Assembly (NCBI GenBank): GCA_030145305.1
Contig: JAQYVX010000009.1
Location: 1 to 64,000 of the forward strand
Source of the DNA: Halarcobacter sp.
GTDB taxonomy: Bacteria > Campylobacterota > Campylobacteria > Campylobacterales > Arcobacteraceae
Direction of reading: 5' to 3'
DNA: 64,000 bases
This document shows, one piece after another, positions 44,719-49,501 of the stretch. The first letter of the stretch is position 1, and each line of letters opens with the position of its first letter. Made by a program: the position numbers and the translations under genes. The notes below the pieces were generated by a model that made no database searches, was not told where the DNA came from, and saw nothing but the letters and a program-made list of their open reading frames with translations.

Positions 44719-46188
44719 TTATGAAGAACAAGATAATCTTAAATTTGAATGCTCATTTGGTGTGGGTTTAGCATACCTTTCAAACTCTTTATGCTCATCA
44801 AAAGGATTTTGAGCAATATTTAATAAATCATTTGTTAGTTTAAAATCACCTTCATTTGCGTTATCAATAGCTTCTTGAAGCATATAATTTTTGATTACAA
44901 ACTTTGGATTTGTACTTTTCATTAATTCTTTCATTTTTTTCAAGTCTTGACCTTGACTTATAATTACCTTTTTATACTCTTTAATCCATTGTATAATTGG
45001 CTCTTTAAATACACAAATATCAGTAATACTAGAAATATCTTCTAGGTCTTCTAACTTACTTAATTCATAGAAAAAGCAGTTATAATCGATTTTTGCATTT
45101 TCTAAAGCACTTAATAAAGAAATAATTAAATCTAAGTTTGCATTTCCACTTAAGCTTTCATCTAAACCTATTCTTTTATTCATTATTGTTAAATACTCTT
45201 TTATGTGTTGAGGAATAAAAGTCTGTAAATATTTAATTAATTTCTCAAAATCACAAATATCTTTTAAGGTATTTGCTAAAACTTCTAAATTCCAGCCTGC
45301 AATATGTGGTTGATTATTATAAGAATATCTTCCTTGTGAATCTGTATGATTACAAATATTATGTTTGTCAAAAGTATCCATAAAAGCATATGGACCGTAA
45401 TCTATAGTAAGTCCTGCCATTGACATATTATCAGTATTCATAACCCCATGCATAAAGCCATAGGCTTGCCATTGAGCCATTAATTTTGCAGTATTATCTA
45501 CTAATTCAAAAAACATCTTTTCATATTTTTCTTCTTTTGTTTTTGTACCTTCTTCTAAATAAGGATATGATTGTTTTATTACATAATCAGCAAGTTGTGT
45601 AAGATTTTTCTCTGAGTTTTTCGTTTTGGCAAAAAATTCAAAAGTCCCTATTCTTATCCAAGAAGGAGACATTCTCATTACAATAGCACCTGTTTCCGCT
45701 TCCCCATAACTTCTATAAACAGGATGAGAAGAACCAATTAATCCCAAAGCTCGTGTAGTTGGAATTCCAAGCCCATGCATAGCTTCACTCATTATATATT
45801 CTCTTATTGAAGAACGTAAAACGGCTCTTCCATCACCTTGTCTTGAATAACGTGTTAAGCCTGAACCTTTTGTTTGAAGATGCCATTTATTTACGCTTCC
45901 TAAATTTATCGCTCTTCCATCACCTAATTGTGGAACAAAGTATCCAAACTGATGGCCTGCGTAAACCATTGAATAAGGGAGTGAACCTTCTAAAAGCTTT
46001 TCTCCATTTACAATTTCAACAAACTCTTTTGTTTCACATTCTTCATAATCAAGCCCTATTAAATCACAAGCACTTTTACTATAAGAAATAAGATGAGCAT
46101 TGTTTAAAGGCTGGGGATTTAGTTCTTGATATAACTTTTCATCAAAGTTAAAATAATCTACGTCTAATTTTAATTCATTTAATTTCAT
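44719..46188 (-). CDS. selO: SelO (YdiU) pseudokinase AMPylase
   Basis: 489 aa, full length. Family blocks are YAGHQFGYFVPQLGDGRAI, KGSGLTRYSRQGDGRAVLRSS, GIPTTRALGLI, MNTDNMSMAGLTIDYGPYAFMD and NICNHTDSQGRYSYNNQP, ending in SCSS. SelO transfers AMP from ATP to Ser/Thr/Tyr of target proteins and is linked to redox stress. In many eukaryotic homologs the penultimate-region cysteine is selenocysteine, and here it is Cys. It is divergent from a selenocysteine thioredoxin gene, an interesting redox neighbour. Confidence 0.95.
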   Translation of the reverse strand: MKLNELKLDVDYFNFDEKLYQELNPQPLNNAHLISYSKSACDLIGLDYEECETKEFVEIVNGEKLLEGSLPYSMVYAGHQFGYFVPQLGDGRAINLGSVNKWHLQTKGSGLTRYSRQGDGRAVLRSSIREYIMSEAMHGLGIPTTRALGLIGSSHPVYRSYGEAETGAIVMRMSPSWIRIGTFEFFAKTKNSEKNLTQLADYVIKQSYPYLEEGTKTKEEKYEKMFFELVDNTAKLMAQWQAYGFMHGVMNTDNMSMAGLTIDYGPYAFMDTFDKHNICNHTDSQGRYSYNNQPHIAGWNLEVLANTLKDICDFEKLIKYLQTFIPQHIKEYLTIMNKRIGLDESLSGNANLDLIISLLSALENAKIDYNCFFYELSKLEDLEDISSITDICVFKEPIIQWIKEYKKVIISQGQDLKKMKELMKSTNPKFVIKNYMLQEAIDNANEGDFKLTNDLLNIAQNPFDEHKEFERYAKPTPNEHSNLRLSCSS

Positions 46189-46306
46189 AATTTATTCTTT
46201 TGTTTTTTCGCCATTATAAAGTATATTAATTAAGGAGTGATATTTTTTTTAGTTAATTTATTTATTTAAGAATTTTATTCTTTACAAAGACTAAACATAA
46301 TACAAA

Positions 46307-46312
46307 TATAAT
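46307..46312 (+). promoter_or_regulatory. -10 box of the Sec-thioredoxin gene
   Basis: TATAAT, 25 bases before the ATG at 46338, which has AAAAGGA as ribosome site. The 149 bases between the selO start and this ATG hold the divergent promoters; I see no clear operator. Confidence 0.55.
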
Positions 46313-46337
46313 CTCATGACAAAATAAAAGGACTAAA

Positions 46338-46703
46338 ATGAAAAAAACACTACTAGTCTTGTTATTTTCTTTTGTTTCGTTATTTGCATTTGAAGATTTA
46401 ACTGCTAATAACTTTGATGAAAGAACTAGCAAAGGAAAAGTAATAGTTGATTTTTACGCTACATGGTGAGGTTCTTGTAAGATTCTAGGTAAGAATTTAC
46501 ATAAATATAAAGATACAAGTAAAGCCAAAGATGTAAAAATCTATAAATTAAACGTAGGTGAGTATGAATCAATTCCTAAAAAATATTCTCTTGCAGGAGT
46601 TCCTGCTTTAGTATATTTTAAAGATGGAAAAGTAATTGACAAAAAAATGGGTATACAAAGTGTTAAAGATCTTAAAGAACTTGAGATAAAAAACTTTAAC
46701 TAA
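46338..46703 (+). CDS. periplasmic thioredoxin-family selenoprotein (TGA = Sec44)
   Basis: 121 aa when the in-frame TGA at 46467-46469 is read as selenocysteine. A signal peptide (MKKTLLVLLFSFVSLFA) is followed by a thioredoxin fold: VIVDFYATW, then U-G-S-C (Sec44, Cys47) in place of CxxC, VKIYKLNVGEY, and the cis-Pro loop AGVPALVYFKDGKVI. Coding continues cleanly after the TGA to TAA 46701-46703, which a pseudogene would not require. A SECIS-like hairpin follows the TGA. AAAAGGA precedes the ATG, TATAAT lies upstream and a strong terminator follows. The Sec machinery (selA, selB, selC, selD) is not in the window. Likely role: reductant or peroxide/disulfide chemistry in the periplasm. Confidence 0.87.
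46467..46498 (+). promoter_or_regulatory. SECIS-like element after the TGA codon
   Basis: Stem AGATTCT (46480-46486), loop AGGTA, stem AGAATTT (46492-46498, one G-U pair). The loop GG begins after 18 bases from the TGA, the same distance, and with the same GGT codon, as in E. coli fdhF as I recall it. This is the position where SelB recognises bacterial SECIS. Confidence 0.75.
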
Positions 46704-46705
46704 AA

Positions 46706-46737
46706 AATTTATTGGCGCTTCTCCTCGCCAATAAATT
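46706..46737. terminator. strong terminator after the Sec-thioredoxin gene
   Basis: AATTTATTGGCG (46706-46717), 8-base loop, CGCCAATAAATT (46726-46737): a perfect 12-bp stem 2 bases after the stop codon, with A/T runs on both sides. Confidence 0.88.
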
Positions 46738-46813: not shown

Positions 46814-47974
46814 ATGAAACAACATATTGAAACTTCTTTAAGTCATATTGCTAAATTTGCTCCCTTTGCTGAACAAACAGGTGCCTCACATTTTCCTATT
46901 TACAATACAGGAACTTTTGATTTAAAAAAGCAAGATGATAGTAATGGAAATAAAATTTATGATTACACTAGAAGTGATAATCCAACTAGAGAGATGTTAG
47001 AAAATCTTTTTACTCATGTGGAAAATGGTGCTGGTTGTGTTTGTACACATACAGGAATTGCTTCAGTTGCCCTACTTTTTGAAACTACTTTAAAAGCTAA
47101 TTCACATATTTTAGTTGAAGCTGATTGTTATGGTGGAACTTTTCGATTATTAAAAATATTTAAAGAAAAGTATAATGTTACAGTTCATTTTGCAAATTTT
47201 TTACACTTTGATAAAATGGAAGAAGTTCTAAAAAATAATCCAATTGATTTAGTTCTTTGTGAATCTCCAACAAATCCAGGTTTAAAGATTATTGATTTAG
47301 AAAAAGTTGCAAATTTAAGTCATAAATATAACTCTTTATTTGCAGTTGATAATTCACTTGCTACTTTTATTTCTCAAAGACCTTTAGATTTTGGTGCTGA
47401 TTTCTCTTTATTTTCAACAACAAAATATATTTCAGGTCATGGAGCTGTTGTTGCTGGTGCAATTGTAGCCTCAACACAAGAGTTATCAAATCAAATTCAT
47501 TATTATGCAAATGCAAATGGGAGATCTCAAAATCCTATGGATGTGTATTTAATAAGTTTAGGAATTCCAACATTAAAAATTAGAATGAAAGAGCATCAAG
47601 AAAGCTCGATTTTTATTGCAAAATTTTTAGAAAAGCAAGATTATATAACAAAAGTTACTCACCCTGCTTTGGAATCTCATCCACAATATCTTCTTGCACA
47701 AAAACAAATGGCCTATGTTCCAGGTTTATTTTGTGCTGATTTTACAAGTGTTGAATTAGCAGAAAAATTTATAGAAAATACAAAAATCTTCGGAGAAAAA
47801 TGTTCATTTGGAAGTCCTGATTCTAGAATTGAAATTCCTGCTAAAATTTCCCATGCAACTTTTTCAAAAGAAGAACTTGCGGCAATTGGAATAGCAAGTA
47901 GTACAGTTAGATTTTCTATTGGTTTAGAAAATGTAGAAGATTTAATAGAAGACATAAAACAAGCTCTAAAATAA
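46814..47974 (+). CDS. Cys/Met-metabolism PLP enzyme (cystathionine gamma-synthase/beta-lyase family)
   Basis: 386 aa. YDYTRSDNPTREMLENLFTHVENG is the family substrate-site block, LVEADCYGGTFRLL follows, CESPTNPGLKIIDL precedes the PLP aspartate (FAVDNSLATF), and the PLP lysine is in STTKYISGHGAVVAG. It probably carries out a transsulfuration or sulfhydrylation step of methionine/cysteine synthesis. The exact reaction (MetB, MetC or MetZ type) cannot be fixed by eye. It precedes a second, longer family member by 27 bases and should use sulfide made by the sulfate reduction genes. Confidence 0.88.
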   Translation: MKQHIETSLSHIAKFAPFAEQTGASHFPIYNTGTFDLKKQDDSNGNKIYDYTRSDNPTREMLENLFTHVENGAGCVCTHTGIASVALLFETTLKANSHILVEADCYGGTFRLLKIFKEKYNVTVHFANFLHFDKMEEVLKNNPIDLVLCESPTNPGLKIIDLEKVANLSHKYNSLFAVDNSLATFISQRPLDFGADFSLFSTTKYISGHGAVVAGAIVASTQELSNQIHYYANANGRSQNPMDVYLISLGIPTLKIRMKEHQESSIFIAKFLEKQDYITKVTHPALESHPQYLLAQKQMAYVPGLFCADFTSVELAEKFIENTKIFGEKCSFGSPDSRIEIPAKISHATFSKEELAAIGIASSTVRFSIGLENVEDLIEDIKQALK

Positions 47975-48001: not shown

Positions 48002-49501
48002 ATGAATAAAAACTTTTTTAAAGCAATTCCTTGTGGAGAAACACTACCTGTAAACAATATACATGCGGTTTCTGTTTCCATGCCTAATATTCAAGATGTA
48101 ATTGATTATGAAGAACAAACACCAGAAATTTTGGGAAAGATTAAAAGTGGATATCCTAGATTTATTCTTCATCCATATTTAAAGCAACTTGGTCTTTTTA
48201 TAAAAAAGAAATATAAAATTTCCAATGAATATGAAGTTGTAGTTCTTAGCTCCAAAAAAGCAGTTGAACTTATAAGTGATAAATATTTTATTCATAATAA
48301 AATTGAAATAGATGAACCTTTTGGGGTAATTTTAGTTCAAAATGGAACAAGTCAATTACAAAAAGTTTTGATGTATATTCAACATGTAGGATGTAATTTA
48401 TCTTCAAGATTAGCCCAAGATTATTTATTTGAACAAGGGCAAATAAGTTCAATTTATAAAGAAGAACTTGAAGATAAAAAAACTGCAAAAGATATTATAA
48501 TAAATACCTTAGCAAAAGCATACTCTCAAAAAAAAGAAAATATCTGTTTAGCTCCATCAGGAATGAATGCAATTTATTCAGTAGTAAGAGGATTAAATTC
48601 AATTCAAAGTCATAATGGTAGAGATATTTTAGTTCAATTTGGTTGGCTTTATCTTGATACTATGAATATAGTAAATCACCATAATGTATTGCAAAAAGTT
48701 TTTCCTGATATTCTGAATCTTGATTTGTTAGAAGAATATTTAGAAGAGTATGGATTAAAAGTTAGTGCAATAATAACTGAGATTCCTACAAATCCACTTT
48801 TGAAAAGTCTTGATATAAAACGCTTACGAAAACTTTGTGATAAGTACAATATCCCCTTAGTAGTAGATACAACTTTTGCAACTCCTTATAATCTTGATTT
48901 AAAAGATTATGCAGATATTTTTGTAGAATCTCTTACAAAATTTGCTTGTGGAAATGCCGATGTTTTAATGGGTGCAATTATTTTGAATACCAAACATAAA
49001 TTATCTCATATGAACTTGGAATTTTTCAAACACTGTGAAAGTGTTTATATAAAAGATATACAAAGATTAGCTTTAGAAATAAAAGATTATAAAAAAAGAG
49101 TTAAAATCATTTCTTCAAATACTAAACAAGTAGTAAAATACTTAAAAACTTGCTCTTATATAGATGAAGTTTTTTATTGTTTAAGTGAAAAAAATAAAGA
49201 AAACTATTCTCAAACAATGATAGATGACAACAGCTATACAGGAATTATTTCTGTAACTTTTAAAAAACCTATAAAAGAAATTTATGATAAATTAAATTTT
49301 GCAAAAGGTCCTAGTTTGGGTACTGAGTTTACACTGTTAATGCCTTATACCTATCTTGCACATTATGATTTAATTGTTTCAAAAAAAGGAAATGAATTTT
49401 TAAAGAAAATTGACTTACCAATTGATTTAATTAGAATTTCTGTGGGAATTGAACCTTTTGAAGAGATTATTAATGAGTTTAAAAAACTAGAAAAAATCTA
49501 A
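48002..49501 (+). CDS. long-form cystathionine gamma-synthase-like PLP enzyme
   Basis: 499 aa. The C-terminal 350 residues follow the Cys/Met PLP family: CLAPSGMNAIYSVVRGLNSI, ITEIPTNPLLKSLDIKRL, the PLP aspartate in PLVVDTTFATPYNL, and the PLP lysine in VESLTKFACGNADVLMG. An extra N-terminal domain of about 130 residues (FKAIPCGETLPVNNIHAVSVSMP, then YPRFILHPYLKQL) resembles fungal STR2-type cystathionine gamma-synthases. Paired with the shorter homolog just upstream, probably as consecutive enzymes or a complex. Confidence 0.82.
   Translation: MNKNFFKAIPCGETLPVNNIHAVSVSMPNIQDVIDYEEQTPEILGKIKSGYPRFILHPYLKQLGLFIKKKYKISNEYEVVVLSSKKAVELISDKYFIHNKIEIDEPFGVILVQNGTSQLQKVLMYIQHVGCNLSSRLAQDYLFEQGQISSIYKEELEDKKTAKDIIINTLAKAYSQKKENICLAPSGMNAIYSVVRGLNSIQSHNGRDILVQFGWLYLDTMNIVNHHNVLQKVFPDILNLDLLEEYLEEYGLKVSAIITEIPTNPLLKSLDIKRLRKLCDKYNIPLVVDTTFATPYNLDLKDYADIFVESLTKFACGNADVLMGAIILNTKHKLSHMNLEFFKHCESVYIKDIQRLALEIKDYKKRVKIISSNTKQVVKYLKTCSYIDEVFYCLSEKNKENYSQTMIDDNSYTGIISVTFKKPIKEIYDKLNFAKGPSLGTEFTLLMPYTYLAHYDLIVSKKGNEFLKKIDLPIDLIRISVGIEPFEEIINEFKKLEKI

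Follow-up and report, generated by a model that had tools for sequence, protein, structure and literature searches.

The window analysed here, a stretch of 64,000 nucleotides from Halarcobacter sp., carries on its plus strand, at 46338-46703, a short gene that is interrupted by one TGA codon, where routine gene prediction would be expected to split it, and preceded by a divergently oriented selO gene. When the TGA is read as selenocysteine (Sec), the product is very probably an exported, Sec-containing thioredoxin. The features to which we refer below are as follows:

44719-46188, minus strand: divergent neighbour selO (YdiU family); ends in SCSS, no Sec
46289-46296, plus strand: upstream element GACTAAAC, common to many Sec loci; TATAAT 10 nt after it
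46307-46312, plus strand: -10 element TATAAT
46328-46332, plus strand: ribosome-binding site AAGGA
46338-46703, plus strand: proposed gene for a Sec-containing thioredoxin, from ATG to TAA, 121 aa
46338-46388, plus strand: signal peptide as predicted by eye, MKKTLLVLLFSFVSLFA (residues 1-17); kept in relatives
46467-46469, plus strand: TGA as proposed Sec codon, residue 44, first position of CxxC
46476-46501, plus strand: proposed SECIS hairpin; core stem 46480-46486/46492-46498, loop AGGTA 46487-46491
46706-46737, strand not assigned: 12-bp hairpin 3' of the gene; T tract confined to the minus strand

The gene and its predicted product

The read-through translation runs MKKTLLVLLFSFVSLFAFEDLT...VDFYATW-U-GSCK...GVPALVYFKDGK, and its sole internal stop is the TGA of codon 44, which lies, as the initial annotation had described, at the first cysteine of a CxxC motif in a frame closed by TAA. 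The thioredoxin fold claimed in that annotation is borne out by the Pfam Thioredoxin model (PF00085), which matches across the TGA (6.9e-21, 74.6 bits vs a cut-off of 23.5), as well as by an AlphaFold model of the 121-aa protein (pLDDT 90.5), whose best matches among solved structures are thioredoxins with TM-scores of about 0.8-0.9. Confidence of the model is low over the signal-like residues at the N-terminus; a hydrophobic N-terminus of this kind, judged by eye, is present in all members of the clade described below, and the protein is probably exported to the periplasm. No curated NCBIfam model reached its own cut-off with the window protein; in particular, the score against TIGR01068 (83.3 bits) falls below the equivalog cut-off of 96.8, so that the protein is better viewed as a thioredoxin-fold relative than as an equivalog of the canonical cytosolic TrxA.

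As to the expression signals that had been ascribed to the gene, the TATAAT and AAGGA elements are in place, whereas the proposed terminator found no support on the plus strand: in the hairpin at 46706-46737, it is the minus strand alone that carries a T tract. Further downstream, a gene of the cystathionine gamma-synthase family (46814-47974) adjoins a frame at 48002-49501, for which NCBIfam gives BesB as the closest model (333.9 bits, far under the cut-off of 800).

The same TGA codon in related genomes

A scan of contig records returned one close relative (locus L002, on contig C1 of genome G013) and one distant thioredoxin. When 104 whole genomes from the family were searched, 20 of them proved to contain loci with a single internal stop, 22 loci in all. 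In every case the stop is TGA, never TAA or TAG, and it always falls on the same codon; a 23rd TGA locus was found in another family of the order. A misread TGT or TGC in the window is thereby ruled out, the same TGA codon being found at 22 further loci (21 within the family and one outside it). Many of the TGA genomes also encode Cys paralogues. Homologues carry at position 44 either Cys or the same TGA followed by a covarying hairpin (see below), and not a simple stop.

In a maximum-likelihood tree, all Sec proteins fall into one clade (support 100/97), with a single Cys-containing member inside it. TGT stands at the Sec codon of this member (locus L047, 1501-1878, of genome G092), which has kept both the selO neighbour and an intact hairpin; the latter scores 65 bits with the covariance model described below. 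The simplest reading is an apparently recent change from Sec back to Cys that has left the SECIS behind, although the tree, being unrooted, does not by itself give the direction.

The intact coding that had been noted on either side of the TGA is under purifying selection on both sides. In ten pairs, the part 3' of the TGA has a dN/dS of 0.08-0.41, with upstream values of the same order, which indicates that the stretch after the TGA is selected as protein. The sequence comparisons support the view that Sec insertion at codon 44 is under selection throughout the clade.

The hairpin after the TGA

The hairpin reported in the initial annotation, AGATTCT-AGGTA-AGAATTT, is present as described at 46480-46498, with the first loop G at 46488 and 18 nt between the TGA and that G; an additional TGT/ACA pairing lengthens it around one bulged A. 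Folding of the mRNA, which had been proposed as a check, gave a weak result: the folding energy of the single sequence is unremarkable (z = -1.34), so that the case rests on the comparison with relatives, where covariation is significant. In 19 distinct Sec sequences, set against 500 shuffles, 91.6% of the cells are paired (86.3% in the shuffles), 18 cells are doubly changed (7.0 expected), and the covariation score is 0.304 (0.187 expected), with none of the 500 shuffles reaching the observed value of any of the three measures. When the partner strand is slid by one column, pairing drops to 60% or less. It is three core-stem pairs that provide this support; as a count of pairs with a double change, three in these 19 sequences does not exceed what the shuffles give. 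The first loop G is invariant among the Sec hairpins. In 15 Cys paralogues, examined in the same register, 77.3% of the cells are paired and none is doubly changed, which is no better than in shuffles.

A covariance model of the hairpin finds the window copy with 60.2 bits (E = 3.8e-8, whole genome), a score that is not independent because the window sequence was used in building the model; the next-best match in the genome is the Cys paralogue, with 30.4 bits. The member from outside the family, which was absent from the model build, scores 50.5 bits. A search of Rfam with the region around the hairpin gave no family at E <= 1.

Sec machinery and other Sec users

Is the organism equipped to insert selenocysteine? 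Its genome contains selA, selB, selC and selD, the set that the initial annotation had proposed to look for: selB directly follows selA, and selC, with the anticodon TCA, lies beside them on the opposite strand. The selD gene itself has an in-frame TGA, in the context QAAG-U-AAKMGPG, and so do two genes for the alpha subunit of formate dehydrogenase (G000:C3:2180 and G000:C50:2180, loci L118 and L119), in one of which the context reads ARI-U-HSA. The organism thus possesses the whole Sec system, and the thioredoxin would not be the only protein to use it. Both formate dehydrogenase genes end near contig starts, at the same offset. In another genome (G002), contig C8 carries two selD genes with an in-frame TGA in each.

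Among the family genomes, selA was found in 19 of the 20 with a TGA thioredoxin vs 51 of the remaining 84 (p = 0.0018, uncorrected for kinship); the TGA genome in which it was not found, G096, is 86% complete. Two genomes of the same genus (G001 and G005) are without selA, and without selB and selD over the cut-offs, and the TGA thioredoxin gene is found in neither. The initial inference of a Sec-using redox protein has therefore held up on each point on which it was exposed: selB and selC are not missing, the homologues do not all end at this codon, and the TGA is not a misread TGT or TGC.

Selenocysteine, stop codon or error

With a single genome in hand, it would be natural to regard the gene as a pseudogene, or as a victim of sequencing error, in which a Cys codon, TGT or TGC, has mutated to, or has been misread as, TGA: the change of one base, from TGT to TGA, would look identical, and the paralogues do have Cys at this position. 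However, the TGA recurs at the same codon in the 22 other loci, the frame stays open and under purifying selection past it, and the hairpin covaries; by this shared, covarying set, the pseudogene or error reading is, as far as sequences can tell, already refuted, and we leave it next to no probability. The TGA could also be a true stop, so that the gene would yield a 43-residue exported peptide or a product of downstream restart, with the hairpin being regulatory only. Indeed, UGA terminates other genes of this genome, and in two relatives (G092 and the locus G093b) TGA serves also as the terminal stop of the Sec gene itself. This reading, however, leaves unaccounted for both the purifying selection on the C-terminal 77 residues, which include the second Cys and the conserved Pro, and the location of the TGA always exactly at the Cys codon, and appears extremely improbable as well. 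Since Sec insertion competes with termination, some shortened product is, nevertheless, likely. An altered genetic code, with TGA standing for Trp or another amino acid, was rejected, given that the aligned residue is Cys, that TGA terminates genes, and that Sec machinery is present. Accordingly, the sequence comparisons lead us to consider Sec insertion at codon 44 as almost certain.

Possible partners: DsbD and SelO

In the window's genome, the Cys paralogue is located immediately upstream of dsbD, and in several other genomes that were read a dsbD-like frame starts after the Cys gene. In two closely related genomes, G086 and G087, it is the Sec gene that occupies this dsbD-adjacent slot, the flanking genes being those of the Cys gene in the window's genome, and no second thioredoxin copy was detected in either at E <= 1e-20. 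That the Sec protein is able to stand in for the dsbD-linked thioredoxin is best supported by this arrangement; outside these two genomes, a large distance separates the Sec gene from dsbD. From this gene order, it appears somewhat more probable than not that the protein serves in the periplasm as a thiol-disulfide reductase and receives its electrons from DsbD. With SelA, SelB, SelC and SelD all encoded in the genome, SelB and the Sec-tRNA(UCA) would put Sec where thioredoxins have the nucleophilic Cys, the N-terminal one of CxxC. The further course can be envisaged as follows. The thioredoxin would be exported to the periplasm, where, by analogy with thioredoxin chemistry, Sec44 would attack disulfides or other oxidised substrates; the resulting selenenylsulfide would be resolved by Cys47, with electrons returned by the membrane reductase DsbD, as the gene order suggests. 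The Sec protein may thus be a faster, or more oxidation-resistant, partner to the dsbD-adjacent Cys-type thioredoxin.

The divergent selO, to which the initial annotation had drawn attention, suggests another partner, namely SelO itself or a stress response regulated by it, with the two divergent genes being co-regulated. Such a selO adjoins the Sec gene in 10 of the 22 loci, as well as the Cys revertant, and an upstream element is shared by many Sec loci: the motif ACTA[AC]AC is found in 14 of 22 Sec loci vs 3 of 29 Cys loci (the revertant among them), an enrichment that is descriptive only because the motif was picked by eye from the same sequences. It starts 15-17 nt before the -10 element in the ten loci that show both, and, combined with its -10, is unique in the window's genome; GACTAAAC is a possible regulator site. 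On the other hand, SelO is expected to be cytoplasmic whereas the Sec thioredoxin is predicted to be exported, some loci are without selO, and in G086 and G087 dsbD is beside the gene, so that SelO as the main partner, in preference to DsbD, seems rather unlikely. It is conceivable, although rather unlikely, that the Sec proteins are an undescribed, single-origin clade of exported thioredoxins that is co-controlled with the divergent selO and forms one redox-stress unit with the SelO adenylyltransferase. Eukaryotic-type use of Sec by SelO itself was rejected here, as the linked SelO proteins end with SCSS, in the window, and with SCSS or TCSS at other loci, with no Sec. In one genome (G091, locus L072), an extra Cys-type thioredoxin gene lies between selO and the Sec gene, in tandem with and just upstream of the latter.

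Relation to known selenoproteins and implications

Thioredoxins with a UxxC motif are a listed selenoprotein family (PMC13188914; PMC9312934), and a paper of 2015 (PMC4607533) counted one Sec thioredoxin in epsilonproteobacteria; in the main text of that paper, we did not find the organism to which it belongs. Titles and abstracts of the literature gave nothing relevant on a DsbD-linked or SelO-linked Sec thioredoxin. Since Sec thioredoxins of the UxxC type are already known, the novelty lies in a new clade of that kind: as delimited by its sequences, the clade is new, with a possible overlap with the single thioredoxin of PMC4607533. It shares with the bacterial Sec thioredoxin (PF00085) the fold, the Sec at the first position of UxxC and the SECIS directly after the UGA, but differs in having a predicted N-terminal signal sequence, a clade of its own and the selO neighbour, and in standing beside dsbD-linked Cys paralogues. 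The dsbD-adjacent Cys thioredoxin (L020/L086) resembles the window protein in its predicted signal sequence, length and fold, with 52% identity over the aligned part, but has CPPC instead of UGSC, no GG loop, and a hairpin without covariation. With the SECIS of E. coli fdhF and the epsilonproteobacterial consensus (PMC4607533), the window hairpin has in common the short stem 3' of the UGA and the invariant G of the apical loop, whereas its sequence is that of the thioredoxin frame, with no match in Rfam.

The finding adds a well-supported selenoprotein clade, of a kind that tends to be shortened by automatic annotation, to the Arcobacter-like bacteria, and extends the use of selenium in these organisms past formate dehydrogenase and SelD. 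The presence of matched Sec and Cys paralogues in one genome, along with a natural Cys form that has kept its SECIS, offers a comparison by which the benefit of selenium to an exported thioredoxin could be assessed, and the selO neighbourhood provides a testable lead on the bacterial SelO.
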